Assembly (NCBI RefSeq): GCF_014701195.1
Contig: NZ_AP018712.1
Span: 1,940,501-2,004,500, forward strand
Source of the DNA: Tepiditoga spiralis
Lineage (GTDB): Bacteria > Thermotogota > Thermotogae > Petrotogales > Petrotogaceae
Reading direction: 5' to 3'
Length of the DNA: 64,000 nt
Shown here: piece after piece, positions 5,693 through 54,538 of the stretch
Layout: the number at the start of each line of letters is the position of its first letter
Numbering within the stretch: position 1 is the first letter of the stretch
The notes under the pieces: generated by a model
Told to the model about the DNA's origin: nothing
Databases searched by the model: none
The model's input: only the letters and a program-made list of their open reading frames with translations
Position numbers and translations under genes: made by a program

Positions 5693-7018
5693 ATGGGACT
5701 GCTTACATTCAAAGGTGGGGTTCATCCTCCTCACAAAAAGAAATTTTCTGAAAATGAAGCAATAAAAATTTTACCGCTTCCAGAAAAAGTATATGTTTAT
5801 ACTGCTCATAGTATAGGCGCACCAGCTAAACCTATCGTTGAAGTTGGAGATAAGGTTAAAACAGGGCAAAAAATTGCTGAAGCTGGAGGTTTTATTTCAG
5901 CAAATTTACATTCTCCTGTAACTGGTACAGTTGTTGAATTTACAAAACTTGTAAATGCTGCATCTGGTTTAAAAAGTGATGTTATTGTTATTGAAAGAGA
6001 AGGAGAAGATCAATGGGAACTTCTTGAAAAAACTGATGATCATACAAAACTAAAACCTGAAGAAATTGTAGCAAGAGTTAAAGAAGCAGGTATAGTTGGT
6101 CTTGGTGGAGCAATGTTTCCTTCACATGTTAAACTTTCAATACCAAAGGGTAAAAAAGCAGAAAGTCTTATTATTAATGCTGCTGAATGCGAACCATACA
6201 TAACCATAGATTATAGAATGATGTTAGAAAAAACATCAGAAGTATTAAAGGGTATTGAAATTATAATGCATACTATAGGCGTTGAAAAAGCTTATGTAGG
6301 AATTGAGGATAATAAATCAAAGGCTATTTCTCATATGAAAGAAGCTGTTAAAAATTCATCTATTGAAATTGTTCCTTTAAAAACAAAATATCCTCAAGGT
6401 GCTGAAAAACAATTAATAAATGCTGTTACTGGTAAAGAAGTTCCTTCAGGTGGTCTTCCTATAGATATTGGTGCTGTAGTATTTAATGTTTCAACAGCAT
6501 ATGCAATATACGATGCCATTTACAATGGAAAAGCTTTAGTAGAAAGTGGAATTTCATTAACTGGTGAAGGAGTTAAAAAACCAGGTAATTTTTGGTTTAG
6601 AGTAGGAACTAAGGTTTCTGAACTTTTAGATTATGTTGGAATAATTGAAGAAGATAAAATAGATAGAGTTCTTTATGGTGGACCAATGATGGGAATTTCA
6701 CTTCCAGATACAGAATTACCTACATTTAAAGGTAATAATGCTATAACTGTTATGACAAAAGATGTTGCACCAAATAAGGAAACAATGCCTTGTATAAGAT
6801 GTTCTTCTTGTGTTAGCGTTTGTCCAATTGGATTACAACCTTATCTAATGAAGAAACTTGCCGATACAAGAAAATATGATGATTTAACAAATAATAATTT
6901 AATGGATTGTATAGAATGTGGAGCTTGTTCATATACTTGTCCATCAGGTATTGACTTAACTAAATCTTTTAAAACAGCTAAAAAAGTTGTAAGAGCTATG
7001 AAACAGAGGAGGGGTTGA
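5693..7018 (+). CDS. rnfC: Rnf complex subunit C (NADH-side, Fe-S and FMN protein)
   Basis: 441 residues. RnfC is the peripheral subunit that reduces NAD+ (or oxidises NADH) in the ferredoxin:NAD+ oxidoreductase, which pumps Na+ or H+. The N-terminus has the lipoyl-like barrel typical of RnfC (FKGGVHPPHKK; HSPVTGTV). A nucleotide/FMN-binding segment GLGGAMFPSHVK follows at ~145, with EPYITIDYRMM after it. Two [4Fe-4S] motifs lie near the C-terminus: C367/C370/C373/C377 and C406/C409/C412/C416. Start is ATG after AAGGAGG. First gene of rnfCDGEAB. Confidence 0.95.
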   Translation: MGLLTFKGGVHPPHKKKFSENEAIKILPLPEKVYVYTAHSIGAPAKPIVEVGDKVKTGQKIAEAGGFISANLHSPVTGTVVEFTKLVNAASGLKSDVIVIEREGEDQWELLEKTDDHTKLKPEEIVARVKEAGIVGLGGAMFPSHVKLSIPKGKKAESLIINAAECEPYITIDYRMMLEKTSEVLKGIEIIMHTIGVEKAYVGIEDNKSKAISHMKEAVKNSSIEIVPLKTKYPQGAEKQLINAVTGKEVPSGGLPIDIGAVVFNVSTAYAIYDAIYNGKALVESGISLTGEGVKKPGNFWFRVGTKVSELLDYVGIIEEDKIDRVLYGGPMMGISLPDTELPTFKGNNAITVMTKDVAPNKETMPCIRCSSCVSVCPIGLQPYLMKKLADTRKYDDLTNNNLMDCIECGACSYTCPSGIDLTKSFKTAKKVVRAMKQRRG

Positions 7019-7019
7019 G

Positions 7020-8000
7020 ATGAAATTTAAAAATCTTTCTGCTCCACATTTAAGAACAAAAGACACTACAAGACAAGTTATGATTGATGTTTTAATATCA
7101 TTAACTCCAGCTATTGCAGTGTCTACTTGGGTTTTTGGATTAAGAGCATTGTATATAATGATGTTTTCTATGATTTCTGCAGAAGTTTTAGATTTTTTTA
7201 TAGTAAGAGTACTTAAAAAACAAAAAAATTATAAACCAGATTTTTCTGCTTCTGTAACTGGATTATTATTTGGGATGAATATGTCAATGGCTGTTCATTG
7301 GTGGCATATGTTAATTGGTATTGCTTTTGCAATAATTGTTGCAAAACACGCTTTTGGTGGATTGGGACAAAATATTTTCAATCCAGCTGAAATAGGAAGA
7401 GTTTTTATGTTAATATCTTTTCCAACTGTAATGACTACATGGTATAAACCTTTTGCAAATATGAGTGCTTCTGTTGATACAATAACAACGGCAACTCCAC
7501 TTGCATTGTTAAAAGAATATGGTGCAAATAAATCACTTTCAAATTTTTCTTATATGGACATGTTTTTAGGTAAGATACCAGGTTCAATAGGTGAAGTTAG
7601 TGCACTTGCATTATTAATAGGATTTGCTTATTTAGTTTACAAAAAAAGAATTAAATTAATGATACCTATTTCAATTTTTTCAACAGTTTTAATAATAAGT
7701 AGCATTTTTTATTTTGTAAACCCAACAAGATTTGGAACTCCTTTATTTCATTTACTAGCTGGTGGAATGATAATTGGTGCTTTATTCATGGCTACTGATA
7801 TGGTAACTTCACCAATGACTATAAAAGGACAAATAGTTTTTGGTATAGGAATTGGAGTTATAGCATTAACAATAAGATACTTTGGAGCTTATCCTGAAGG
7901 TGTATCTTTTTCAATTGTAATAATGAATGCACTAGTACCTTTAATTGATTTATGGATGAAACCAAGAGTTTTTGGAACCTCTAAAAAGGGGGCTAAGTAA
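7020..8000 (+). CDS. rnfD: Rnf complex subunit D (membrane flavoprotein)
   Basis: 326 residues, with about nine to ten hydrophobic helices. RnfD is an integral subunit with covalently bound FMN and takes part in cation translocation. The expected segments are present: GGLGQNIFNPAEIGRVFMLISFP and, for flavin attachment, DTITTATPLALLK, where Thr159 is the probable FMN site. The usual flavinylation motif is S/T-G-A-T; here the Gly is Thr. It starts two bases after rnfC, with the ribosome binding site (GAGGAGGGG) inside the end of rnfC. Confidence 0.93.
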   Translation: MKFKNLSAPHLRTKDTTRQVMIDVLISLTPAIAVSTWVFGLRALYIMMFSMISAEVLDFFIVRVLKKQKNYKPDFSASVTGLLFGMNMSMAVHWWHMLIGIAFAIIVAKHAFGGLGQNIFNPAEIGRVFMLISFPTVMTTWYKPFANMSASVDTITTATPLALLKEYGANKSLSNFSYMDMFLGKIPGSIGEVSALALLIGFAYLVYKKRIKLMIPISIFSTVLIISSIFYFVNPTRFGTPLFHLLAGGMIIGALFMATDMVTSPMTIKGQIVFGIGIGVIALTIRYFGAYPEGVSFSIVIMNALVPLIDLWMKPRVFGTSKKGAK

Positions 8001-8001
8001 T

Positions 8002-8694
8002 ATGAAAGATTATATAAAAACAGGACTTGTTTTAATGATATATATGGTAATAGCAGGATTTTTAGTTGCTTTTGTCTATAATGCAGTAACACCTGCAATA
8101 AATAATGCAGAATTCAATGCAAAATTAAAAGCTATAAAAACAGTACTTACTGATGCTAATACACAAAAATTATTAGTAGAAAAAATACCACAAAATGAAG
8201 AAGAATTAAATAAATTTATTTGGCAAAAAAATTCAGATTTATTGTACAAAGATGAAAAAAGCAATAAAATATATTCACCTGCATTTAAATTCATATCAGG
8301 AAATAAAGAAATCTATGTATTAACTATATCAGGTGTAGGATTTGGCGGAGATGTAACTTCTGTTGTTTCTTTTGTAAAAGAAAATGGAAAAACATCTTTA
8401 AATAAAATTGAAGTTATAAATTACTCTCAAGAAACACCTGGACTTGGTGCAAATATTGCTGAAGACTCTGTTAAAGAAAGATTTTATTCAATACCTTATT
8501 CTGGTTTAAAATCTGGTTTAAAAGTTGATAAAGATTCTGGAGTAAAAATAAATGCAAACGAAAAAGAAAAATTTTCAGCTCAAGGTATTGTAATAACAAG
8601 TGATATAATGACTGGTGCAACAATAACTCCAAGAGGAGTTGTTAGTTCTATAAACGCTGCCGTAAAATACCTTACAGAAAAAGGGGTGATGTAA
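8002..8694 (+). CDS. rnfG: Rnf complex subunit G (FMN-binding, exported domain)
   Basis: 230 residues from the ATG at 8002, just after the rnfD stop and preceded by AAAAAGGGGG; an upstream in-frame start would overlap rnfD without a site. One N-terminal transmembrane helix (residues ~5-30) is followed by an FMN-binding domain on the outer face. The flavin attachment motif is TGAT at residues 204-207 (DIMTGATITPRGV), with Thr207 as the FMN-linked residue. LGANIAED resembles the family motif near the substrate face (GLGxxI). Two bases separate it from rnfE. Confidence 0.93.
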   Translation: MKDYIKTGLVLMIYMVIAGFLVAFVYNAVTPAINNAEFNAKLKAIKTVLTDANTQKLLVEKIPQNEEELNKFIWQKNSDLLYKDEKSNKIYSPAFKFISGNKEIYVLTISGVGFGGDVTSVVSFVKENGKTSLNKIEVINYSQETPGLGANIAEDSVKERFYSIPYSGLKSGLKVDKDSGVKINANEKEKFSAQGIVITSDIMTGATITPRGVVSSINAAVKYLTEKGVM

Positions 8695-8695
8695 A

Positions 8696-9307
8696 ATGGC
8701 AGACATAAAAAACTTAACCAGTGGGCTTGCAAAAAATAATCCTATCTTCGTACAAGTTTTAGGAATGTGTCCAACTCTTGCAACAACAACAAATGCAAAA
8801 AATGGACTTGGAATGGGATTGGCTGCAGCTGCTGTTCTTGTTATGTCTAATATTGTAATATCTTTAATAAAAAAATTAGTTCCGGATAAGATTAGAATAC
8901 CTGTATATATAGTTGTAATTGCTTCTTTTGTTTCAATGATAGACTTATTAATGCATGGTTATACATATGATTTGTGGAAAACATTGGGATTATTTATACC
9001 TTTAATTGTTGTTAACTGTATAATTCTTGGAAGAGCCGAAGCTTTTGCTTCTAAAAATGGTGTTCTTGATTCTATCTACGATGCAATAGGAATGGGACTT
9101 GGATTTACCGCAGCCTTAGTTATACTTGGATCTGTTAGAGAACTTTTAGGTAATGGTACTATTTTCAATATCAATATTTGGGGAAGCGGTTTGAAAATGT
9201 ATGTTTTCATTCTTCCACCTGGAGCATTTATTGCACTTGGATTAATACTTGCAACCTTTAACTATATAGGAATTAAAAAAAGCAAAAAGGCGGGTGCTAA
9301 GAAATGA
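8696..9307 (+). CDS. rnfE: Rnf complex subunit E (integral membrane)
   Basis: 203 residues, six hydrophobic helices, homologous to RnfA and NqrD. The family motifs are present: NNPIFVQVLGMCPTLATTT near the N-terminus (with the conserved Cys) and VNCIILGRAEAFASKN mid-protein. RnfE and RnfA form the inverted membrane pair that carries a shared iron-sulfur cluster between their conserved cysteines, as known from Rnf/Nqr structures. Its last four bases overlap rnfA. Confidence 0.94.
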   Translation: MADIKNLTSGLAKNNPIFVQVLGMCPTLATTTNAKNGLGMGLAAAAVLVMSNIVISLIKKLVPDKIRIPVYIVVIASFVSMIDLLMHGYTYDLWKTLGLFIPLIVVNCIILGRAEAFASKNGVLDSIYDAIGMGLGFTAALVILGSVRELLGNGTIFNINIWGSGLKMYVFILPPGAFIALGLILATFNYIGIKKSKKAGAKK

Positions 9308-9882
9308 CAAAATTATTTTTAATATTCTTATCTGCTACACTCGTTAATAACTTTGTTTTATCAAGATTTTTAGGAATATGTCCTTTCATTGGTGTATCTA
9401 AAAAATTAGATTCAGCTGCTGGAATGTCTATGGCTGTTGTATTCGTTATGACTATGGCTGGAATAATAAGCTGGATTTTAAACTTATTGCTCGTAGCCAC
9501 TGGATTAGAATTTTTAAGAGTTATCGTATTTATACTTGTTATTGCTGTACTCGTTCAGTTTGTTGAATTCTTTATTAAAAAAACAAGTCCTTCTTTATAC
9601 GAAGCACTTGGAATATACCTTCCATTGATAACAACAAACTGTGCTGTTTTGGGTGTTGCTCTAATAAACATTCAAACAAATTACAATATAATTGAAACTA
9701 CAGTCAATTCATTTGCATCTGCACTTGGATTTGGTATGGCATTAATGATTTTTGCTGCTATACGTGAAAGACTTGATTTAAGCAGTATTCCAAAACCATT
9801 TCAAGGAACTGCAATTGCATTAATTACTGCCGGATTACTCTCATTATCATTTATGGGATTTTCTGGATTAGTAAGACTCTAA
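9304..9882 (+). CDS. rnfA: Rnf complex subunit A (integral membrane)
   Basis: 192 residues, six hydrophobic helices. Family motifs are FVLSRFLGICPFIGVSKK (conserved Cys in the first helix pair) and TTNCAVLGVAL in the second half, matching RnfE and giving the expected pseudo-symmetry. The start ATG at 9304 overlaps the rnfE stop, with a GGCGGG site inside the end of rnfE. rnfB follows after 18 bases with its own AAGGAGG. Confidence 0.95.
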   Translation: MTKLFLIFLSATLVNNFVLSRFLGICPFIGVSKKLDSAAGMSMAVVFVMTMAGIISWILNLLLVATGLEFLRVIVFILVIAVLVQFVEFFIKKTSPSLYEALGIYLPLITTNCAVLGVALINIQTNYNIIETTVNSFASALGFGMALMIFAAIRERLDLSSIPKPFQGTAIALITAGLLSLSFMGFSGLVRL

Positions 9883-40958: not shown

Positions 40959-43205
40959 TTAAAAAACTTGTCCAAAACCAAATGTATACTTTCCAACTAA
41001 GTTTTTATCCCATGAATATTCAAATCTTACTTGTCCTAACATAGGTATTGTTAACTTCAATCCAGTACCAAATGACCATATTGAATCTTCTAATAACTTT
41101 GATGGATCATCTTTTGCATTTCCATAATCTCCAAATATAAATAAATCAATTGGAATAGTTTGTGTAGATAGTTCATATGAAAGTTCAGCATTCATCAATA
41201 ATTGAGAATCTGCATTTAATGTTCCAAAATCATATCCTCTAACTGTATACATACCACCAATTGAATAAAATGATTTTAAATTAGATGGATCATTTACATA
41301 TCCAACCTTAACTCTCGTTCCAAGTGTGAATTTTTGAAATGTTGTAAAGTATTTTGTTTCTATATTTCCACCCAGATATTTTTTTGATGGTTCAATTACA
41401 TTTATTCCTCCCATAACATCTAAAGATAAATATTCACCATTGTATACTCTATATAAACCATCTAATTTATTATATAAAAATCCAGTACTTGCTGTAAAAT
41501 CAGAGTACTTTGAATTATCTTCTTTTGTATAATCATTATAAGCCATTGACGTTGTAATATAAGAAAAATCTGAAATTTTAAATCTTGGGCTAATACCTAC
41601 TGATATTTGATTAGTAATTGTAGAACCAAATGTACTTTCATACTTTCCTGATGGTAAATACATATATTTAGAGTTAAATCCCATATCTACATTTGAACTA
41701 AATAATTTAATTACATTGTAATCAAATCCAGCTTCATACTGATTTGATACTGGATTTAATTTAACATTTAACCCAAAAGTTTGTCCATATCCAAATGGAT
41801 TTGGCATTTTTAAGTCCGTTGTAAAACTAAAACCTTCATACCATTGTTTATTTTCTAATGGTGTCCATGTTCCACCAAACATAAATTTTCTAAGTTTTGT
41901 TGATTCTTTTGGTTTTAAAATTATATCTATTTTATCCCCATCTTCTTTTGGTAATATATCTAATTTACTGTAAAAACCTGATCCAGTAAAAGATGTATAT
42001 GTATTTCTTAAATCTTTTTGATTCAAGACATTTCCTTCTTTTATTTTTACAAAAGAATTTATTATATAGTCTTGTGTTTTAGCAGTTGCTTCTTTACTAA
42101 TTTCTACTTTTCCTACTTTCATTTCATCAAATTTAAAAGTTATAATGTTATTTTCTATAATAGGAGTTATATTAACATATAAGTACCCATTATCTAAATA
42201 CACTTTTTTTAAGTTATCCAAAGCATTTAATAAATCAATATTTGAAATAGTTTCTTTTTTCATAAATAATGATATACTTTCTTTTAATTTAAAGTTATCT
42301 ATACTATTATTTCCTTTAAATACTACATTTTTTATTTTTATATCTTTATCAATTATTTGTTTTGGTTTACCACTAAATACTAATAATAATTCTCCACCTT
42401 TATTTTCTTTTATGTTTATTTCTTTAAATCCCATTTTTGTATTTTCATCAAAGTATTCAAGTTGTTTTAATTTATTCATTATTTGATAGTATTTTTGTAT
42501 ACTTAAATATGTTTCTTTTACATCTGGTCTAAATAAGAAAAATTTATTATTATATTCTTTTCTAAATTCAAAGCCAAGTTCATTTTTTATTTTTTCTTTA
42601 TTTAATTTTTTCATATCTCCTTGAAGTTCTATATCCCATAAAGAATATTCTTTAATTTCAAAAACAAGTGTTCCGTTTTTATATTCTTTATTATTTACTT
42701 TAGTAGCTTCAATAGTTAATTTATTAGAATTGAGTTTTATATTAGAATTTATTGAAATATAAACATAACCTTTTGAATTATAAAGTCTTTGTATATTTTT
42801 ACCACTATTTTTATAATCTGTTATATTTAATGGAATGTCTTTTTTTAAAGTTATATTAGATAATATATCCTTTTTATCTACTAAACCGTCTCCTAATATT
42901 TCTACTTTTATATCTTTTACAATAGGATTTGGGGTTATTTCTATATTTAATACTCCAGTTTTTTCATCTAATTTATAGTTTAACGATGTAAAATAACCAA
43001 GTTCATTTATTTGTTTTAAAGCTAATTGTATATCAATATCACCAACAAGATGATCTTTTTGTATTTCATAATCTTTTAAAATTTTATCTACTTTAGTTGC
43101 AGCATAACTAATATCATTACTAAATTTTATATCTGTTAGTTTAGTTATAGAAAAAGATGTAATAAATATAAAGGTTAAAAATACTATCAATAAAAATTTT
43201 TTCAT
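40959..43205 (-). CDS. bamA: Outer-membrane assembly factor, Omp85/BamA family
   Basis: 748 residues from the ATG at 43205 (AGGAGG upstream), overlapping the preceding stop (TGATG). A signal peptide (KKFLLIVFLTFIFITSFS) is followed by several POTRA-type repeats (to ~residue 430) and a beta-barrel. The barrel has the substrate-loop motif TVRGYDFG and ends in an aromatic residue (FGFGQVF), the outer-membrane sorting signal. BamA inserts beta-barrel proteins in the outer membrane; in Thermotogota this is the toga. It is the last gene of the leftward array. No lipoprotein partners or Skp are nearby. Confidence 0.92.
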   Translation of the reverse strand: MKKFLLIVFLTFIFITSFSITKLTDIKFSNDISYAATKVDKILKDYEIQKDHLVGDIDIQLALKQINELGYFTSLNYKLDEKTGVLNIEITPNPIVKDIKVEILGDGLVDKKDILSNITLKKDIPLNITDYKNSGKNIQRLYNSKGYVYISINSNIKLNSNKLTIEATKVNNKEYKNGTLVFEIKEYSLWDIELQGDMKKLNKEKIKNELGFEFRKEYNNKFFLFRPDVKETYLSIQKYYQIMNKLKQLEYFDENTKMGFKEINIKENKGGELLLVFSGKPKQIIDKDIKIKNVVFKGNNSIDNFKLKESISLFMKKETISNIDLLNALDNLKKVYLDNGYLYVNITPIIENNIITFKFDEMKVGKVEISKEATAKTQDYIINSFVKIKEGNVLNQKDLRNTYTSFTGSGFYSKLDILPKEDGDKIDIILKPKESTKLRKFMFGGTWTPLENKQWYEGFSFTTDLKMPNPFGYGQTFGLNVKLNPVSNQYEAGFDYNVIKLFSSNVDMGFNSKYMYLPSGKYESTFGSTITNQISVGISPRFKISDFSYITTSMAYNDYTKEDNSKYSDFTASTGFLYNKLDGLYRVYNGEYLSLDVMGGINVIEPSKKYLGGNIETKYFTTFQKFTLGTRVKVGYVNDPSNLKSFYSIGGMYTVRGYDFGTLNADSQLLMNAELSYELSTQTIPIDLFIFGDYGNAKDDPSKLLEDSIWSFGTGLKLTIPMLGQVRFEYSWDKNLVGKYTFGFGQVF

Positions 43206-43759
43206 CAATTTTCCTCCTTGATTTCTGTTTCTAATGTTTTTAGCATTTGTTTTATTTCATTCATAAAAGTTGGTTTAAAATATATATCTTCATATAATTC
43301 TTTTAATTTTTCTGTGTTTAAATCATATGACTCATTGTTAAATGTACGTTTTATATACCAATCAACATTTGGATCTATATATATCACAGAAAAAATACAC
43401 ATTGAAATATCTCCAACTGGTTGACAATCAATGTTAGTTTTATTAAATAATGCTTCTACTATAGTTCCCTCATCTTTTTTAGATTGTAATTTTAAATATC
43501 CACCAGTTAATTCTGTGGAAAATTTTAAAAATGGCAGTCCAACTCCAAACTTTTTTTTTCTTTCTTTTTTTGTTGTAAAAAATGGATCTAATGCCTTTTT
43601 TATGTCATCCTCATCCATTCCTTTTCCATAATCTTTAATAATAAATTTAATATTTGTTTTATCTTCTTCAATATATAATTCACATTTTTTAGAATGTGAA
43701 GCAACTGCATTTTCACATATATCTGAAATATGGTCTGCAATAGTTTTTAACGTTGCCAT
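43205..43759 (-). CDS. Stand-alone HATPase_c protein (histidine-kinase-type ATPase)
   Basis: 184 residues. The GHKL ATPase motifs are present: N box (HISDICENAVASHS, residues ~10-23), G1 (DYGKGMDED) and G2 (FGVGLPFLK), followed by ~80 residues of unassigned sequence. There is no dimerisation/phosphoacceptor domain, so it is not a normal sensor kinase. It overlaps the PHP gene by 13 bases and bamA by one to three. Proteins of this type occur with PHP, DRTGG and CBS-HATPase proteins near [FeFe]-hydrogenase genes in Clostridia and Thermotogae (recalled, not checked). Confidence 0.8.
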   Translation of the reverse strand: MATLKTIADHISDICENAVASHSKKCELYIEEDKTNIKFIIKDYGKGMDEDDIKKALDPFFTTKKERKKKFGVGLPFLKFSTELTGGYLKLQSKKDEGTIVEALFNKTNIDCQPVGDISMCIFSVIYIDPNVDWYIKRTFNNESYDLNTEKLKELYEDIYFKPTFMNEIKQMLKTLETEIKEEN

Positions 43760-44472
43760 ATTGGAATCACCTTATTATTATATATAGATTTTTTTAATTC
43801 TTCAAACGTTCTTGATGAAGCGTCTACATTACATGCTATCATGTTTAATTCTTGTGGGAAATGTGCATCATTTCCAAAAATAAATCTTTTAAAACCTAAC
43901 TTTTTTGCTTTCATCATTTCTTTTTCTGATTTTACTTCAACTGCATCAAATTCTAATTTTGGCGGTATTCCAAGTTGTTTAATTAATCCAAATGATCTAA
44001 AAATATGTGCTGGAACTATTAAAGTTTCATATTTTCTTGCCATTATATATATATTATCTATACTATACTTAGAAGAACTTCCATAATAAGGCGTTTCTAT
44101 AATTTTTTTAAATTCTCCATTTTCATTTAATAATATTTGATATCCAAGTTTTTCTGGATCATATTTTTTTATTATTAAACTTTCTTCGATTTTTTTTGAA
44201 AATTCTAATAATTCATTAATATTTTTAAAATATACCAATATATGAACTTCTTCAATTGTTTGTACTTCTATTCCAAAAATAACTTTTATTCCATTTTTAG
44301 ATAATATATCCGAAAAAACTAAAACATTTTTGGCAGAATTATGGTCGGTTATTGATATCCAATCTATTCCTATTTTTTGTAAAACATCTAAATATACTTC
44401 TGGTGTCATAGTTATTTCTCCACAAGGAGATAAAACTGTATGATTATGAAAACTACATTTAAAAATTGCCAT
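43747..44472 (-). CDS. PHP-domain metal-dependent phosphoesterase
   Basis: 241 residues. The PHP metal motifs are in order: SFHNHTVLSPCGE (HxH), ITDHNSA (Asp-His), GIEVQT (Glu), EVHIL (His), PAHIFR (His) and FGNDAHFP (Asp-x-His). Such proteins hydrolyse phosphoesters or nucleotides; related small PHP enzymes act on 3',5'-bisphosphonucleotides or RNA 5' ends. The substrate here is unknown. Its ATG overlaps the DRTGG stop (TAATG), and its 3' end overlaps the HATPase gene, so the whole set is translationally coupled. Confidence 0.85.
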   Translation of the reverse strand: MAIFKCSFHNHTVLSPCGEITMTPEVYLDVLQKIGIDWISITDHNSAKNVLVFSDILSKNGIKVIFGIEVQTIEEVHILVYFKNINELLEFSKKIEESLIIKKYDPEKLGYQILLNENGEFKKIIETPYYGSSSKYSIDNIYIMARKYETLIVPAHIFRSFGLIKQLGIPPKLEFDAVEVKSEKEMMKAKKLGFKRFIFGNDAHFPQELNMIACNVDASSRTFEELKKSIYNNKVIPIWQR

Positions 44473-44801
44473 TATTCCCTCAATAAATTATAAAGACTTC
44501 CAGCCAATTCAAATGCTGATTTTTTAGATTTTAATAATACAATATTTTTTTCTTTTGCTATTTTTATAGTTTCTTCCATATATTCTTCATTTTCTGGTAA
44601 AATAATTGCCCTTGCACCTACAACTTCAGCTACTGCTATTATATTTTGATGTGATTGATGTGTTATCCATATTGAATCTTCTGGAGCATTTCCCATTACT
44701 TCACTTAATAAATCTCCAACATGTCCTGAATTTATATCTTCATCATTAAAATTAGTTATTGATTCTAAATTTAATTCATCAATTATCTTTTTTAATTTCA
44801 T
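44472..44801 (-). CDS. DRTGG-domain protein (first copy)
   Basis: 109 residues, a single DRTGG-type domain. It aligns with the second copy at 45733: KKIIDELNL against [21 protein letters not shown] against [12 protein letters not shown], and ENIVLL-like ends. The fold is known in regulatory parts of phosphotransacetylase and pyrophosphatases, where it is linked to CBS domains and adenine-nucleotide sensing. Overlaps the CBS-HATPase gene by four bases (ATGA). Confidence 0.8.
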   Translation of the reverse strand: MKLKKIIDELNLESITNFNDEDINSGHVGDLLSEVMGNAPEDSIWITHQSHQNIIAVAEVVGARAIILPENEEYMEETIKIAKEKNIVLLKSKKSAFELAGSLYNLLRE

Positions 44802-45736
44802 TTTTTATCCCCCCTAAAAAATATCATTTCTACTTTAAGTCCCTTATCAGGACTAGAAACTACTGTCATTTTATTTGAAAATCTTTTCATATTAGGTAAT
44901 CCCATTCCGGCTCCAAAACCTTTTTCTCTTATAGTCTCTGATGCTGTTGAATAGCCTTCTTTCATAGCTTTATCTATACATTCTATACCTTTTCCAAAAT
45001 CTTCAACATAAATTTTTATAAAATCTTCTTTTATATAACAATATATATGTCCTGTAGATCCACTATGTATCACTACATTAGCTTCGGCTTCATATGTAGC
45101 TATTGATATTTTCCTTGTTAATTTTGAATCTATTTCTTTACTTAATAAAAATTTTTTTAATTTTGTAGCTGCCATTCCAATACTTTCTATTGAATTATAA
45201 TTTATTTCATATGAAAAATCTGCCCCAGATTTTTTTTCATTGATAATTATTGATTTAAATTCATTTTCTAAAACTCTTTTTCTTCTTTCATCATGTATAT
45301 ATATATGCCCAAGTTTTTTAAATAACCATTCCATTATATCTAATTTTGTTACAACACCAACAACTTTTTTATCTCTATTCAAAACTGGATAACGACCAAA
45401 TTTTTTTTCTTGATTAAAATCCAAAAAATCTCTTATTGTATCTTCTTCACTTAAATAAAATGGTTCTTTTGTCATCCAATTTAAAACTCTACTTTCTATA
45501 CCACCATTTTCAAATACTTTTATTAAATCTTCTATACTTAATATTCCAATTAATTCTAATTTTTTATTTACAACAGGCATTCCTGAAATACCTTTAATTC
45601 TCATTATTTCTTTTGCATACTTTATTTTCGTTTCTTCTGTAACTACTATTGGTGGTGTACTCATTATTTCTTTTATCTTTGTATTTGAAAAAACATTTGA
45701 AAGTAATTCAACTAACTTATCAACTGTTTTGTTCAT
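44798..45736 (-). CDS. CBS-domain pair fused to an anti-sigma-type HATPase
   Basis: 312 residues. Residues ~20-75 and ~85-140 are two CBS domains (MSTPPIVVTEETKIKYAKEI; MTKEPFYLSEEDTIRDFLDF), which usually bind adenosine nucleotides or SAM. Residues ~180-308 are a GHKL ATPase related to RsbW/SpoIIAB (YEAEANVVIHSGSTG as N box, DFGKGI, KGFGAGMGLPNMKR). The fusion suggests a kinase or protein switch controlled by cellular energy charge (inference). It lies between two DRTGG genes with ATGA overlaps on both sides. Confidence 0.85.
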   Translation of the reverse strand: MNKTVDKLVELLSNVFSNTKIKEIMSTPPIVVTEETKIKYAKEIMRIKGISGMPVVNKKLELIGILSIEDLIKVFENGGIESRVLNWMTKEPFYLSEEDTIRDFLDFNQEKKFGRYPVLNRDKKVVGVVTKLDIMEWLFKKLGHIYIHDERRKRVLENEFKSIIINEKKSGADFSYEINYNSIESIGMAATKLKKFLLSKEIDSKLTRKISIATYEAEANVVIHSGSTGHIYCYIKEDFIKIYVEDFGKGIECIDKAMKEGYSTASETIREKGFGAGMGLPNMKRFSNKMTVVSSPDKGLKVEMIFFRGDKK

Positions 45737-46113
45737 ATTTCTATCCCCAAATCTGTTCCCATTGCATCTTTTATTCCATTATTAAATAACATAGAACATG
45801 CAACATACATTGATAAATCTGTCTTCAATATAGAAATATCTAAATCTTTTGCCATTTCAATAACTTTATCAGAAATTTTCTTTCCCCTCACAAATAAAAT
45901 TACTTTAGCTCCAATTACCGCTGCCGTTGTAATTGTTTGTGGACTAACAAGTCCTGTAATTAAAAGCATGTCTTCTTTGGAAAATGCTAAAACATCACTC
46001 ATTAAATCTCCAGCCCCAGCATATTTTATTTTAAAATTTTCTACATTTGGAGTTAAATAAATTTTTTTTGCTTTTAGAAGTTTTGATATTTCAATTATTT
46101 TCAATGCTATCAT
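45733..46113 (-). CDS. DRTGG-domain protein (second copy)
   Basis: 126 residues from the ATG at 46113, chosen because the protein then aligns residue by residue with the N-terminus of the first DRTGG protein; a GTG at 46128 and a TTG at 46104 are alternatives. It has the same fold ([30 protein letters not shown]) and a longer tail. Its start lies inside thyX (overlap of 23 bases), so it depends on thyX translation. Confidence 0.75.
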
Positions 46114-46804
46114 TCCCAAGTAAATCACCAGTATAATTGTACTTTAAAAATGCTTCATATGTCCATGGACATTTTTCTTTAAATATCTTTGCCATAGCCA
46201 ATGCATATTCTTGAATTTCAAGTTGAGCATGAGAATCAGCTCTTAAATTTAAAAAGTGCATAAGTGCTCTAACATTTGTTGTCATATAAAATTGCGTATA
46301 CTGTCCTACTGGTAAAACCATTCTTGCCATTTCTCTTGCAATTCCCATTTCTAATAATTTTTTATAATTTTTATATGCTAATTCATATGATTTTTTAAAA
46401 ATTTTTATTGCTTCTTCTGTAATTTCTTTATCTTTTATAATATCAGAAGATTGTTTGTTTTGTGTATTTTGAGTTCTAACTTGTTCTGGTATATAAAATT
46501 CTTCTGCATACTTTGAAGTATATCTTCTACTTATTTCATTGTAAGACATTCCTATTCTGTGTCTAAACCATTGTCTTGCAACAAATATAGGAGTTTTTAT
46601 ATGAAATGTAAAAGTAATATGTTCAAAAGGTGAATGATGTCCATGTTCCATTAAATAAAATAATAATTTTTTATCTCTTTCATCATTTTTCATTTCACCA
46701 GCGTATGAAACACGTGCAGCTCTTATTGCAGCATTATCATCTCCCATAAAATCAATTAATTTCACAAATCCAGAATCGAGTAAGTTTATTTCTTCACTCT
46801 TCAT
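46091..46804 (-). CDS. thyX: FAD-dependent thymidylate synthase
   Basis: 237 residues from the ATG at 46804 (GAGGAGTGA upstream). The ThyX signature [15 protein letters not shown] begins at residue 81 and matches RHRxxSxNExSxRY with one extra residue, as in other ThyX proteins. It makes dTMP from dUMP using methylene-tetrahydrofolate, FAD and [13 protein letters not shown] and [19 protein letters not shown] are further conserved segments. It overlaps the TPR gene upstream and the DRTGG gene downstream. Confidence 0.95.
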
Positions 46805-47984
46805 TTTTTTCACTCCTCATAATTTCGTTTTTTACATTTATTTTTTCTCCAATTTTTTCAACAATTATTTCTTTTTCATTTTTTTTATGTATTAAAATAA
46901 AAATTAATAACACGCTTATTAAAAATAAAGGTAATACATAAGAAAAAAAAGCATATATTCTATACTTTTTCTGAATTGATATTAACATTTTATAAGTTTT
47001 TTCTTGATTTGGATCAAAGGTTAATGATTTACTTAAATATATTCTTGCAAGATTTAAATTTTTTTCATTTCCAGTATAATATGTTCTACCCAATTTTTCA
47101 AGAACAGTTGGATTTTTAGGATCATTTTTTAATGAAAGTCTATAATAATTTATCTTTTGTGATGTTGTACTGGCCATATCTCCCAATATTTCATATGAAG
47201 AGGCTAATACATTGTTTTTATTTGTATTATTGATTATATTTTGAATTAAATCTCTTGATTTTTTATAATTTTTATTTTTTTGATACGTTTTAGCTATTAA
47301 TAATAGTATTTTATTATCTTTCTTTGAAAAATTTTTGTATAACTCACTATAAGAGATTATTTCATCTAATTTATTTAATGAATAACAAAATTTTATTAGT
47401 AATTCTAAAATTTTTTGATTATCCTTATGATTAATATACATTGCTTTTAATTCATTGTATGCTTCATTTTTGTTTTGATATATTTTAGAGTTCCAAAGAA
47501 TAAGTGAATGATAATAAGAAGTAAATGGTGTTTTTCCTTTAAGCTGTTCTATTTTAGAAATTGCTCCATTTATTTTTTTTAATTTTATTAAATTTCTAGA
47601 TTTTTCCCAATCTGTATATGCAAAATAAATATACATAGAATTTAAAATTATTGAATTATTATAAATATTCAATGCTTCTTCTAAATCTTTTTGTGGTTTA
47701 AAATAATCAAATGGAATCGTTTCAGATAATATATTTAAAAGTACAGATTCATCTGCCGAAAAATTTTTATATAATTCAGATCTCATTATATTTGCAGTTG
47801 TTTTATAATCTTCATACCCTGTTTTCCAATATTTTAAATATAAACCTAATATATTCATTTCTTTATTTTCAGAATTAATAATAATTTCTTCATCAAAATT
47901 ATTTAAAAAATCATTTAAATTTGAAAAATTAGAAATTGAAATCATTATAATTAAAAACAAAAGTAAAAATTTTAGAGATTTGAT
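46794..47984 (-). CDS. Membrane-anchored TPR protein, apparent ATC start
   Basis: About 396 residues. In-frame start options are limited by a TAA at 47990. A TTG at 47960 has no ribosome site and would give an uncharged N-terminus. An ATC at 47984 lies eight bases after AAGGGGG and gives a textbook signal peptide (M)[20 protein letters not shown], so ATC initiation is proposed. The body is TPR-like helices (~residues 60-340; e.g. [20 protein letters not shown] and [20 protein letters not shown]), with a C-terminal membrane helix (~350-372) and a charged tail. Function unknown. The 3' end overlaps thyX by 11 bases. Confidence 0.75.
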
Positions 47985-49359: not shown

Positions 49360-49764
49360 TTAAAATATATCTTTCTTTAATATCATTAAGTTACCAATTT
49401 CTATATCTTCCCAAATTGGTTTTCCAAATACTTGTTCTATTATATAAACGCCCAATCCACCATCTCTATATTCTTCTAATGGTCTATGTTTTACCTTAGA
49501 CACATCTATCTTTTTTCCATAGTCTCTTATTTTTATTATTAGTTCTTTTCCATCAAATAAAAATTCTATGTCTATTAATTTTTCTTCATTATAACTATAA
49601 GTATGTTCTATAACATTAGCAACTGATTCATTTAAAGCTAGTTCCATCATAAAAATTTCTTCATCATTTTTAAAATTACATAAATATAAAAAATTTTTTA
49701 AAGCATGTCTTAATAATTTTATATATATATTTTTACTTGGAATAGTAATTTTAAAAAAATCCAT
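49360..49764 (-). CDS. RsbW/SpoIIAB-like anti-sigma kinase
   Basis: 134 residues, a single GHKL ATPase. N box is MELALNESVANVIEHTYSYN, G1 is DYGKKID (second Gly replaced by Lys) and G2 is GGLGVYIIEQVF. Such proteins phosphorylate a STAS antagonist and hold a sigma factor or other partner. A STAS protein is encoded 4.5 kb away (54245). No sigma factor or PP2C phosphatase is seen in the window. Start is ATG after AAGGGGG. Confidence 0.85.
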   Translation of the reverse strand: MDFFKITIPSKNIYIKLLRHALKNFLYLCNFKNDEEIFMMELALNESVANVIEHTYSYNEEKLIDIEFLFDGKELIIKIRDYGKKIDVSKVKHRPLEEYRDGGLGVYIIEQVFGKPIWEDIEIGNLMILKKDIF

Positions 49765-54244: not shown

Positions 54245-54538
54245 TTATTTTATATTTAATATTTTATCCAAGCCAACCATTTCAAATAATTTTCTTATTT
54301 TTTCTTCAATATTTATTATTTCAAGAGAACCACTTTTTAATTGTGCTGTTTTATGTAAACTTATAAGCATTCCTATTCCTGAGCTGTCTAAATAAGAAAC
54401 ATCTTTAAAATCTAAAATCATTTCAGATAATTTAAGATCTAAAATTTTTTCTTTTACTTCTTTTATATTAGACATATCTATTTCACCAGAAATCTTTATT
54501 ATTTTTTTACCTTCAACTTCATTTAAAACTATTTCCAT
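54245..54538 (-). CDS. Anti-sigma factor antagonist (STAS domain)
   Basis: 97 residues, one STAS domain with the phosphorylation motif YLDSSGIGML (residues ~48-57). In partner switching, the dephosphorylated form binds an RsbW-type kinase and frees its target. The RsbW-like protein at 49360 is the nearest candidate partner; CBS-HATPase at 44798 is another. Start is ATG after AAGGAGGTATATT. Confidence 0.92.
   Translation of the reverse strand: MEIVLNEVEGKKIIKISGEIDMSNIKEVKEKILDLKLSEMILDFKDVSYLDSSGIGMLISLHKTAQLKSGSLEIINIEEKIRKLFEMVGLDKILNIK

Follow-up and report, generated by a model that had tools for sequence, protein, structure and literature searches.

The closest described relatives of the genes treated here lie in operons of bifurcating hydrogenases. 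A published Halanaerobium operon contains anti-sigma kinase, PHP, histidine kinase, NuoE, NADH dehydrogenase and iron hydrogenase genes (PMC4237134), and the group D (M2e) "sensory" [FeFe]-hydrogenases, here termed HydS, are recognised by criteria that include a C-terminal Cx2Cx4Cx16C motif and loss of the proton-transfer cysteine (TSCCP) (Land et al., 2020, PMC8163306). We analysed a 64,000-nucleotide stretch of the Tepiditoga spiralis genome (contig NZ_AP018712.1, positions 1,940,501 to 2,004,500), called the window throughout, which holds a hydrogenase-free counterpart of such genes. Five open reading frames (ORFs), all on the minus strand between 43205 and 46113, encode two DRTGG-like proteins (D1 and D2), a kinase fused to two CBS domains (CBSK), a PHP-domain phosphoesterase (PHP) and a stand-alone GHKL ATPase (HAT). 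An earlier note drawn from the sequence alone had described five genes that overlap by 1 to 13 bases, start inside thyX and run into bamA with no redox enzyme following, and our gene calls agree. The Halanaerobium operon looks like the same set, and the clostridial set is already partly listed in papers, without a function; literature searches for DRTGG together with hydrogenase and PHP or histidine kinase returned nothing useful. New relative to the literature searched are the CBS-bearing hydrogenase-free form, the alternation of CBS and HydS, and the joint loss of all five proteins.

We read the five genes, tentatively and with a little less than even confidence, as one signalling unit, a kinase/DRTGG switch whose input would have been exchanged from H2 or redox state to adenylates. 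HydS is nearly always encoded between an SpoIIAB-like kinase and a DRTGG protein, and a CBS pair is found on the kinase wherever HydS is missing. If the reading is correct, such a phospho-switch with interchangeable inputs would be the missing signal path of the group D sensory hydrogenases; the likely next component after HydS can be named as the kinase, followed by D1, with the CBS version as a natural control. The window module, being the hydrogenase-free form, comprises five predicted soluble proteins and is directly testable.

A five-protein unit across Thermotogota

The kinase, D2, HAT, D1 and PHP were each searched in 103 genomes of the phylum, of which 82 are good genomes (at least 90% complete, at most 5% contaminated). 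D1, D2, PHP and HAT are each present in 66 of the 82 and absent from the same 16, and full-length CBSK, as read off the kinase search listing, is absent from these 16 as well. The genomes without the module belong to genera g2, g3, g7 (window's family), g16, g32, g33 and g36, and the joint losses fall in at least three lineages, with no partial set among the 82. The order thyX-D1-CBSK-D2-PHP-HAT-bamA is kept in families f1, f2, f4 (where the contig ends in thyX) and f8; since the same order recurs in many Thermotogota loci and the phylogenetic profile is identical, the set is well beyond chance. The operon is split in f6, f9, f10 and f11 with every part retained, as thyX-D1 / CBSK / D2-PHP-HAT-bamA in f9 and as thyX-D1-CBSK apart from D2-PHP-HAT-bamA in f11. 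This shared presence and absence, even where the operon is split, is good evidence at the level of gene content that the five proteins form one functional unit rather than a product of gene-order inertia. The stable thyX-module-bamA order in four families could also be taken as a sign that the function is tied to thyX or bamA, in deoxythymidine monophosphate (dTMP) supply or outer-membrane assembly, the redox link being a relic. We give this almost no credence, as the module pieces separate in f9 and f11 with no part lost and clostridial sets have other neighbours. A 471-residue ORF after PHP in f10 was considered as a possible HydS and rejected, its sequence reading as glutamyl-tRNA synthetase.

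In family f7, NuoE-like, 2Fe-2S and NuoF genes come after the module. The kinase-domain tree, which has few columns and many open forks, places all Thermotogota together (100/100) and f7 as sister to the rest (98/78). Because f7 holds this position and retains NuoE-2Fe2S-NuoF beside the set, the hydrogenase linkage looks ancestral and would have been lost before the other Thermotogota families diverged. The earlier note had allowed for close relatives always being hydrogenase-linked, with a merely local separation here. Close relatives instead hold the set between thyX and bamA, so this is an old state, and a rearrangement out of a hydrogenase operon in this genome alone is rejected.

CBS pairs and sensory hydrogenases as probable inputs

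More than 570 relatives came out of a GTDB contig scan; the best 80 of them are mostly clostridial and almost all ordered D1-kinase-HydS-D2-PHP. In many of these 80, NuoE-HAT-2Fe2S-NuoF-HydA lies downstream or divergent, and the occurrence beside [FeFe]-hydrogenase and NuoE/NuoF genes that the earlier note had described is indeed seen in Clostridia and in one Thermotogota family, f7. That note does not have the group D HydS that clostridial sets contain, the versions linked to Rnf or the hydrogenase-free clostridial copies. The search of plasmid records by tblastn found a Parabacteroides record with D1, a HATPase without CBS, an [FeFe]-hydrogenase-like protein, DRTGG, PHP and HATPase, and no relatives were found in the viral-contig scan. 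A second sample was drawn from the phylum of one GTDB-scan genome, with many loci (from L191 on) selected because their reading frames are long.

Among all loci with sufficient sequence downstream, a kinase without CBS has HydS as neighbour in 109 of 109 cases and a kinase without HydS carries CBS in 47 of 47; four loci (L191, L192, L202, L205) have both, the CBS pair being fused to the kinase with HydS retained, and none has neither. Fisher's test gives p = 3e-36 (5.5e-10 outside Thermotogota), with p-values that ignore shared ancestry; given that ancestry and the choice of the later loci by reading-frame length, the counts show a rule, not a prevalence. A strict sensor swap, with CBS or HydS and never both, is rejected as an absolute by the four loci that carry both. 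Stand-alone D1-CBSK-D2-PHP-HAT sets without HydS also occur in Clostridia (L195, L198, L200, L204, L206), so the hydrogenase-free form is not unique to Thermotogota, and two genomes (G409, G492) hold a stand-alone set plus a separate kinase-HydS set. Three CBS-kinase sets (L194, L203, L205) lie directly upstream of an rnfCDGEAB-like cluster, its genes named from their sequences, and the stand-alone set of L206 is about 4 kb from rnf-like genes. The CBS-bearing sets are often found downstream of a folC-like gene (L194, L200, L203, L205, L206), usually with a small membrane protein in between and maf/radC/mreBCD-like or rnf-like genes beyond.

By its sequence, the clostridial HydS carries the group D marks: the C-terminal Cx2Cx4Cx16C is present in 107 of 108 and TSCCP in 0 of 108, at a median length of 439 residues, the presence or absence of a PAS domain being judged from that length alone. 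HydS is flanked in the surveyed loci by the SpoIIAB-like kinase and D2, so the gene annotated 'AraC' beside published HydS is probably a misnamed D2. Three further loci (L221, L223, L225) contain kinase-HydS pairs without D1, D2 or PHP, the pair of L225 being flanked by response-regulator-like and sensor-kinase-like genes, which suggests another output route for group D HydS.

The five proteins and the proposed switch

The module lies at about 1.98 Mb of a single-contig genome of 2.50 Mb (Table 1). Overlaps measure 4 bases for D1/CBSK and for CBSK/D2, 1 for D2/PHP and 13 for PHP/HAT, with 23 bases shared between the end of thyX and D1 and 4 between HAT and bamA; an alternative GTG start of D1 at 46128 is possible. 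Among the window ORFs around the module no redox gene is adjacent to the set, neither NuoE/NuoF/HydA nor Rnf genes adjoin it, and no HydS lies between the overlapping CBSK and D2.

Table 1. Features of the module and its flanks (window coordinates)
Feature	Position	Strand	Description
D1	45733-46113	-	DRTGG/HprK-N-fold protein (predicted), 126 aa from ATG
CBSK	44798-45736	-	two CBS domains fused to SpoIIAB/RsbW-type HATPase kinase, 312 aa
CBSK kinase (HATPase) domain	44813-45199	-	about residues 180-308
D2	44472-44801	-	second DRTGG-like (DRTGG/HprK-N-like) protein, 109 aa
PHP	43747-44472	-	PHP-domain phosphoesterase, 241 aa, metal-site residues intact
HAT	43205-43759	-	stand-alone GHKL ATPase with C-terminal extension, 184 aa
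thyX	46091-46813	-	upstream flank; context, outside module
bamA	40959-43208	-	downstream flank; context, outside module

D1 falls just below the Pfam gathering cut-off for DRTGG (E 1.8e-4, score 21.7 against 25.2) and D2 just below that for Hpr_kinase_N instead (E 1.6e-4, score 22.1 against 24). All 40 of 40 D1-family members match DRTGG (PF07085) at E<=0.01, and the nearest solved folds of the AlphaFold model of D1 (pLDDT 86.5) are the DRTGG protein 2ioj (TM-score 0.72), 3l31 (0.68), which is the CBS-DRTGG part of a C. perfringens pyrophosphatase, and the HprK/P N-domain; as modelled, D1 has the DRTGG fold. Most D2-family members match the pyrophosphatase model, and a PDB sequence search with D2 gave no match. 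The profiles of D1 and D2 match each other in whole-genome searches, so calling the two paralogous, as had been done before, is fair. D1 Ser39 (codon 45997-45999) is invariant in all 142 aligned sequences and D2 Ser33 (codon 44703-44705) in all 136, both in a D-x-[LM]-S motif, and from this conservation they are candidates, and only candidates, for phospho-acceptors. In eight clostridial genomes, all of one clade, D1 is fused to the kinase; a D1-kinase contact is supported by this gene fusion, which points to D1 as the partner of the kinase. The suggestion that the GHKL ATPases phosphorylate or bind the DRTGG proteins thus gains on the side of pairing, while phosphorylation stays an inference.

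CBSK matches two CBS domains (5.7e-27) plus HATPase, and its kinase domain matches the anti-sigma F kinase SpoIIAB (1.1e-14), with E216, N220, D246, G248, G250 and G273-G279 conserved in the alignment; site residues of the kinase, HAT and PHP are nearly invariant. CBS signatures of the form GxxS/TxxD bind adenosine nucleotides. Both are intact in CBSK (GxxS67xxD70 and GxxT130xxD133) and kept across 40 Thermotogota and 11 Clostridia, apart from S/T exchanges and one D-to-E, which makes nucleotide sensing by CBSK plausible. PHP (Pfam match 4.8e-9) keeps all its metal ligands (H9, H11, D43, H44, E69, H77, H156, D202, H204) and has only weak matches in the PDB sequence search, to endonuclease Q and other PHP enzymes. 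Intact CBS signatures and a complete PHP metal site would also suit a nucleotide-messenger module as proposed in the earlier note, in which CBS and DRTGG bind, for example, Ap4A, PHP hydrolyses the messenger and the HATPases are ATP-driven effectors, and the pyrophosphatase region that resembles D1 was solved with AMP and Ap4A. For PHP taken by itself, destroying a nucleotide signal and acting as a phosphoprotein phosphatase would be equally possible. We consider this improbable, as clostridial versions have the same PHP and DRTGG proteins without any CBS pair, and the CBSK kinase domain matches SpoIIAB.

HAT matches HATPase (9.6e-13) and has no DHp domain; its model (pLDDT 89.8) is nearest in Foldseek to MutL, the BCKDK/PDK serine kinases and the catalytic domains of histidine kinases. 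With MutL among the best matches and the set linked to complex Fe-S enzymes in Clostridia, one could picture the proteins as helping to assemble or repair iron-sulfur or redox enzymes, HAT being a MutL/Hsp90-like clamp, and no signalling switch at all. This we regard as highly improbable: the kinase domain resembles SpoIIAB and occurs fused to CBS or D1, HAT also matches BCKDK/PDK serine kinases and histidine-kinase catalytic domains, and many Thermotogota without the set still carry hydrogenase genes.

The switch that we favour would work as follows. The five-gene unit would descend from, or have a common origin with, the regulatory genes of bifurcating-hydrogenase operons, where in most Clostridia the kinase, without CBS, would take its input from the group D sensory hydrogenase encoded beside it. 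As HydS is missing from the Thermotogota set and a CBS pair is fused to the kinase, the input there is most likely adenylate state (AMP/ADP/ATP or Ap4A). The nucleotide-bound CBS domains would set the activity of the SpoIIAB/RsbW-like kinase, which would act on its direct partner D1, probably at the invariant serine; D2 would be the paralogous partner of HAT, PHP would reverse the modification as a phosphatase, and the output would adjust ferredoxin/NAD(H) energy metabolism. To a broader version we assign less weight, as possible but doubtful: one SpoIIAB-like core with interchangeable inputs (group D [FeFe]-hydrogenase/H2 or CBS/adenylates), DRTGG proteins as a new class of partner that replaces STAS proteins, and a PHP phosphatase may constitute a phospho-switch widespread in anaerobes.

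Several points weigh against the proposed switch. The loci behind the CBS/HydS association are not independent in phylogenetic terms, and some of the clostridial ones were selected by the length of their reading frames; with CBS and HydS together in four loci, CBS may have come as a further input and not in place of HydS; no fusion of D2 with HAT was found in our survey; and D1 Ser39 lies in a lower-confidence region of the model (about 70 pLDDT). As to the output, Thermotogota without the module mostly keep [FeFe]-hydrogenases and rnfC, so that no target is implicated by co-loss, and the phylum shows no consistent loss of hydrogenase or Rnf alongside the module. That the set is linked to HydABC and Rnf suggests ferredoxin/NAD(H) energy metabolism as what it controls.

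The T. spiralis genome has only two [FeFe]-hydrogenases, both bearing the L1-L3 motifs that catalytic enzymes have, encoded at 1.85 and 2.32 Mb with module genes near neither, and an rnfCDGEA-like cluster lies in the window itself (5693-9882, plus strand), more than 30 kb from the module. The hydrogenase-independent role that the earlier note gave the module is therefore unsupported as it stood, since regulation in trans is possible. Together with the ancestral linkage to NuoE/NuoF/HydA or Rnf, these genes would allow the module to have stayed devoted to regulating the bifurcating hydrogenase and/or Rnf, its function unchanged by lost adjacency. We judge this rather unlikely, as genera g2, g3 and g7 hold two to three [FeFe]-hydrogenase matches and rnfC with none of the five proteins, and one genome (G024; 99% complete, fragmented) has the module and no hydrogenase detected. 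The hydrogenase locus at 1.845-1.860 Mb has a short NuoF-like subunit of 407 residues and a NuoE of 139, and NuoF of the other locus has 607; no rnfB was seen directly after the window rnfCDGEA-like cluster. In two other genomes a longer ORF that contains a DRTGG-like match lies no more than about 2 kb from an [FeFe]-hydrogenase gene (matches at G039:C1:2309187-2309483, G041:C7:94633-94932), possibly a CBS-DRTGG pyrophosphatase beside the hydrogenase.

Comparison with known systems

The nearest system is the bifurcating-hydrogenase operon with group D HydS (Halsa_1862-1871, PMC4237134; TamHydS locus, PMC8163306), which shares the families of D1, SpoIIAB-like kinase, D2, PHP and HAT in a fixed order, whereas the window copy lacks HydS and NuoE/NuoF/HydA and its kinase carries a CBS pair. 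With the SpoIIAB/RsbW partner switch CBSK shares the kinase domain family, the N-box Glu and Asn and the G1 and G2 boxes, but the window operon has no STAS protein, sigma factor or PP2C and holds DRTGG proteins and a PHP enzyme instead. Five STAS genes lie elsewhere in the genome, one of them in the window (54248-54532, minus strand), about 4.5 kb further upstream of a second RsbW-like HATPase (49360-49764, minus strand) that adjoins fapA and is conserved upstream of thyX in f1; these two are a possible conventional partner-switch pair.

The regulatory region of CBS-DRTGG family II pyrophosphatase (PDB 3L2B/3L31), the source of the 0.68 TM-score match to D1, likewise brings CBS and DRTGG modules together, although in the window the two belong to different proteins, with a kinase-like ATPase instead of a pyrophosphatase as the effector. 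HAT resembles the PDK/BCKDK GHKL serine kinases, the structure search aligning it with BCKDK over 79 columns at 32% identity, but only through the ATP-binding domain; it is too short for the N-terminal helical domain of those kinases and bears a C-terminal extension of its own. Unlike a two-component histidine kinase system, the window operon has HATPase (and CBS) domains only, the domain search of its five genes finding neither a DHp domain with phospho-accepting His nor a receiver domain.

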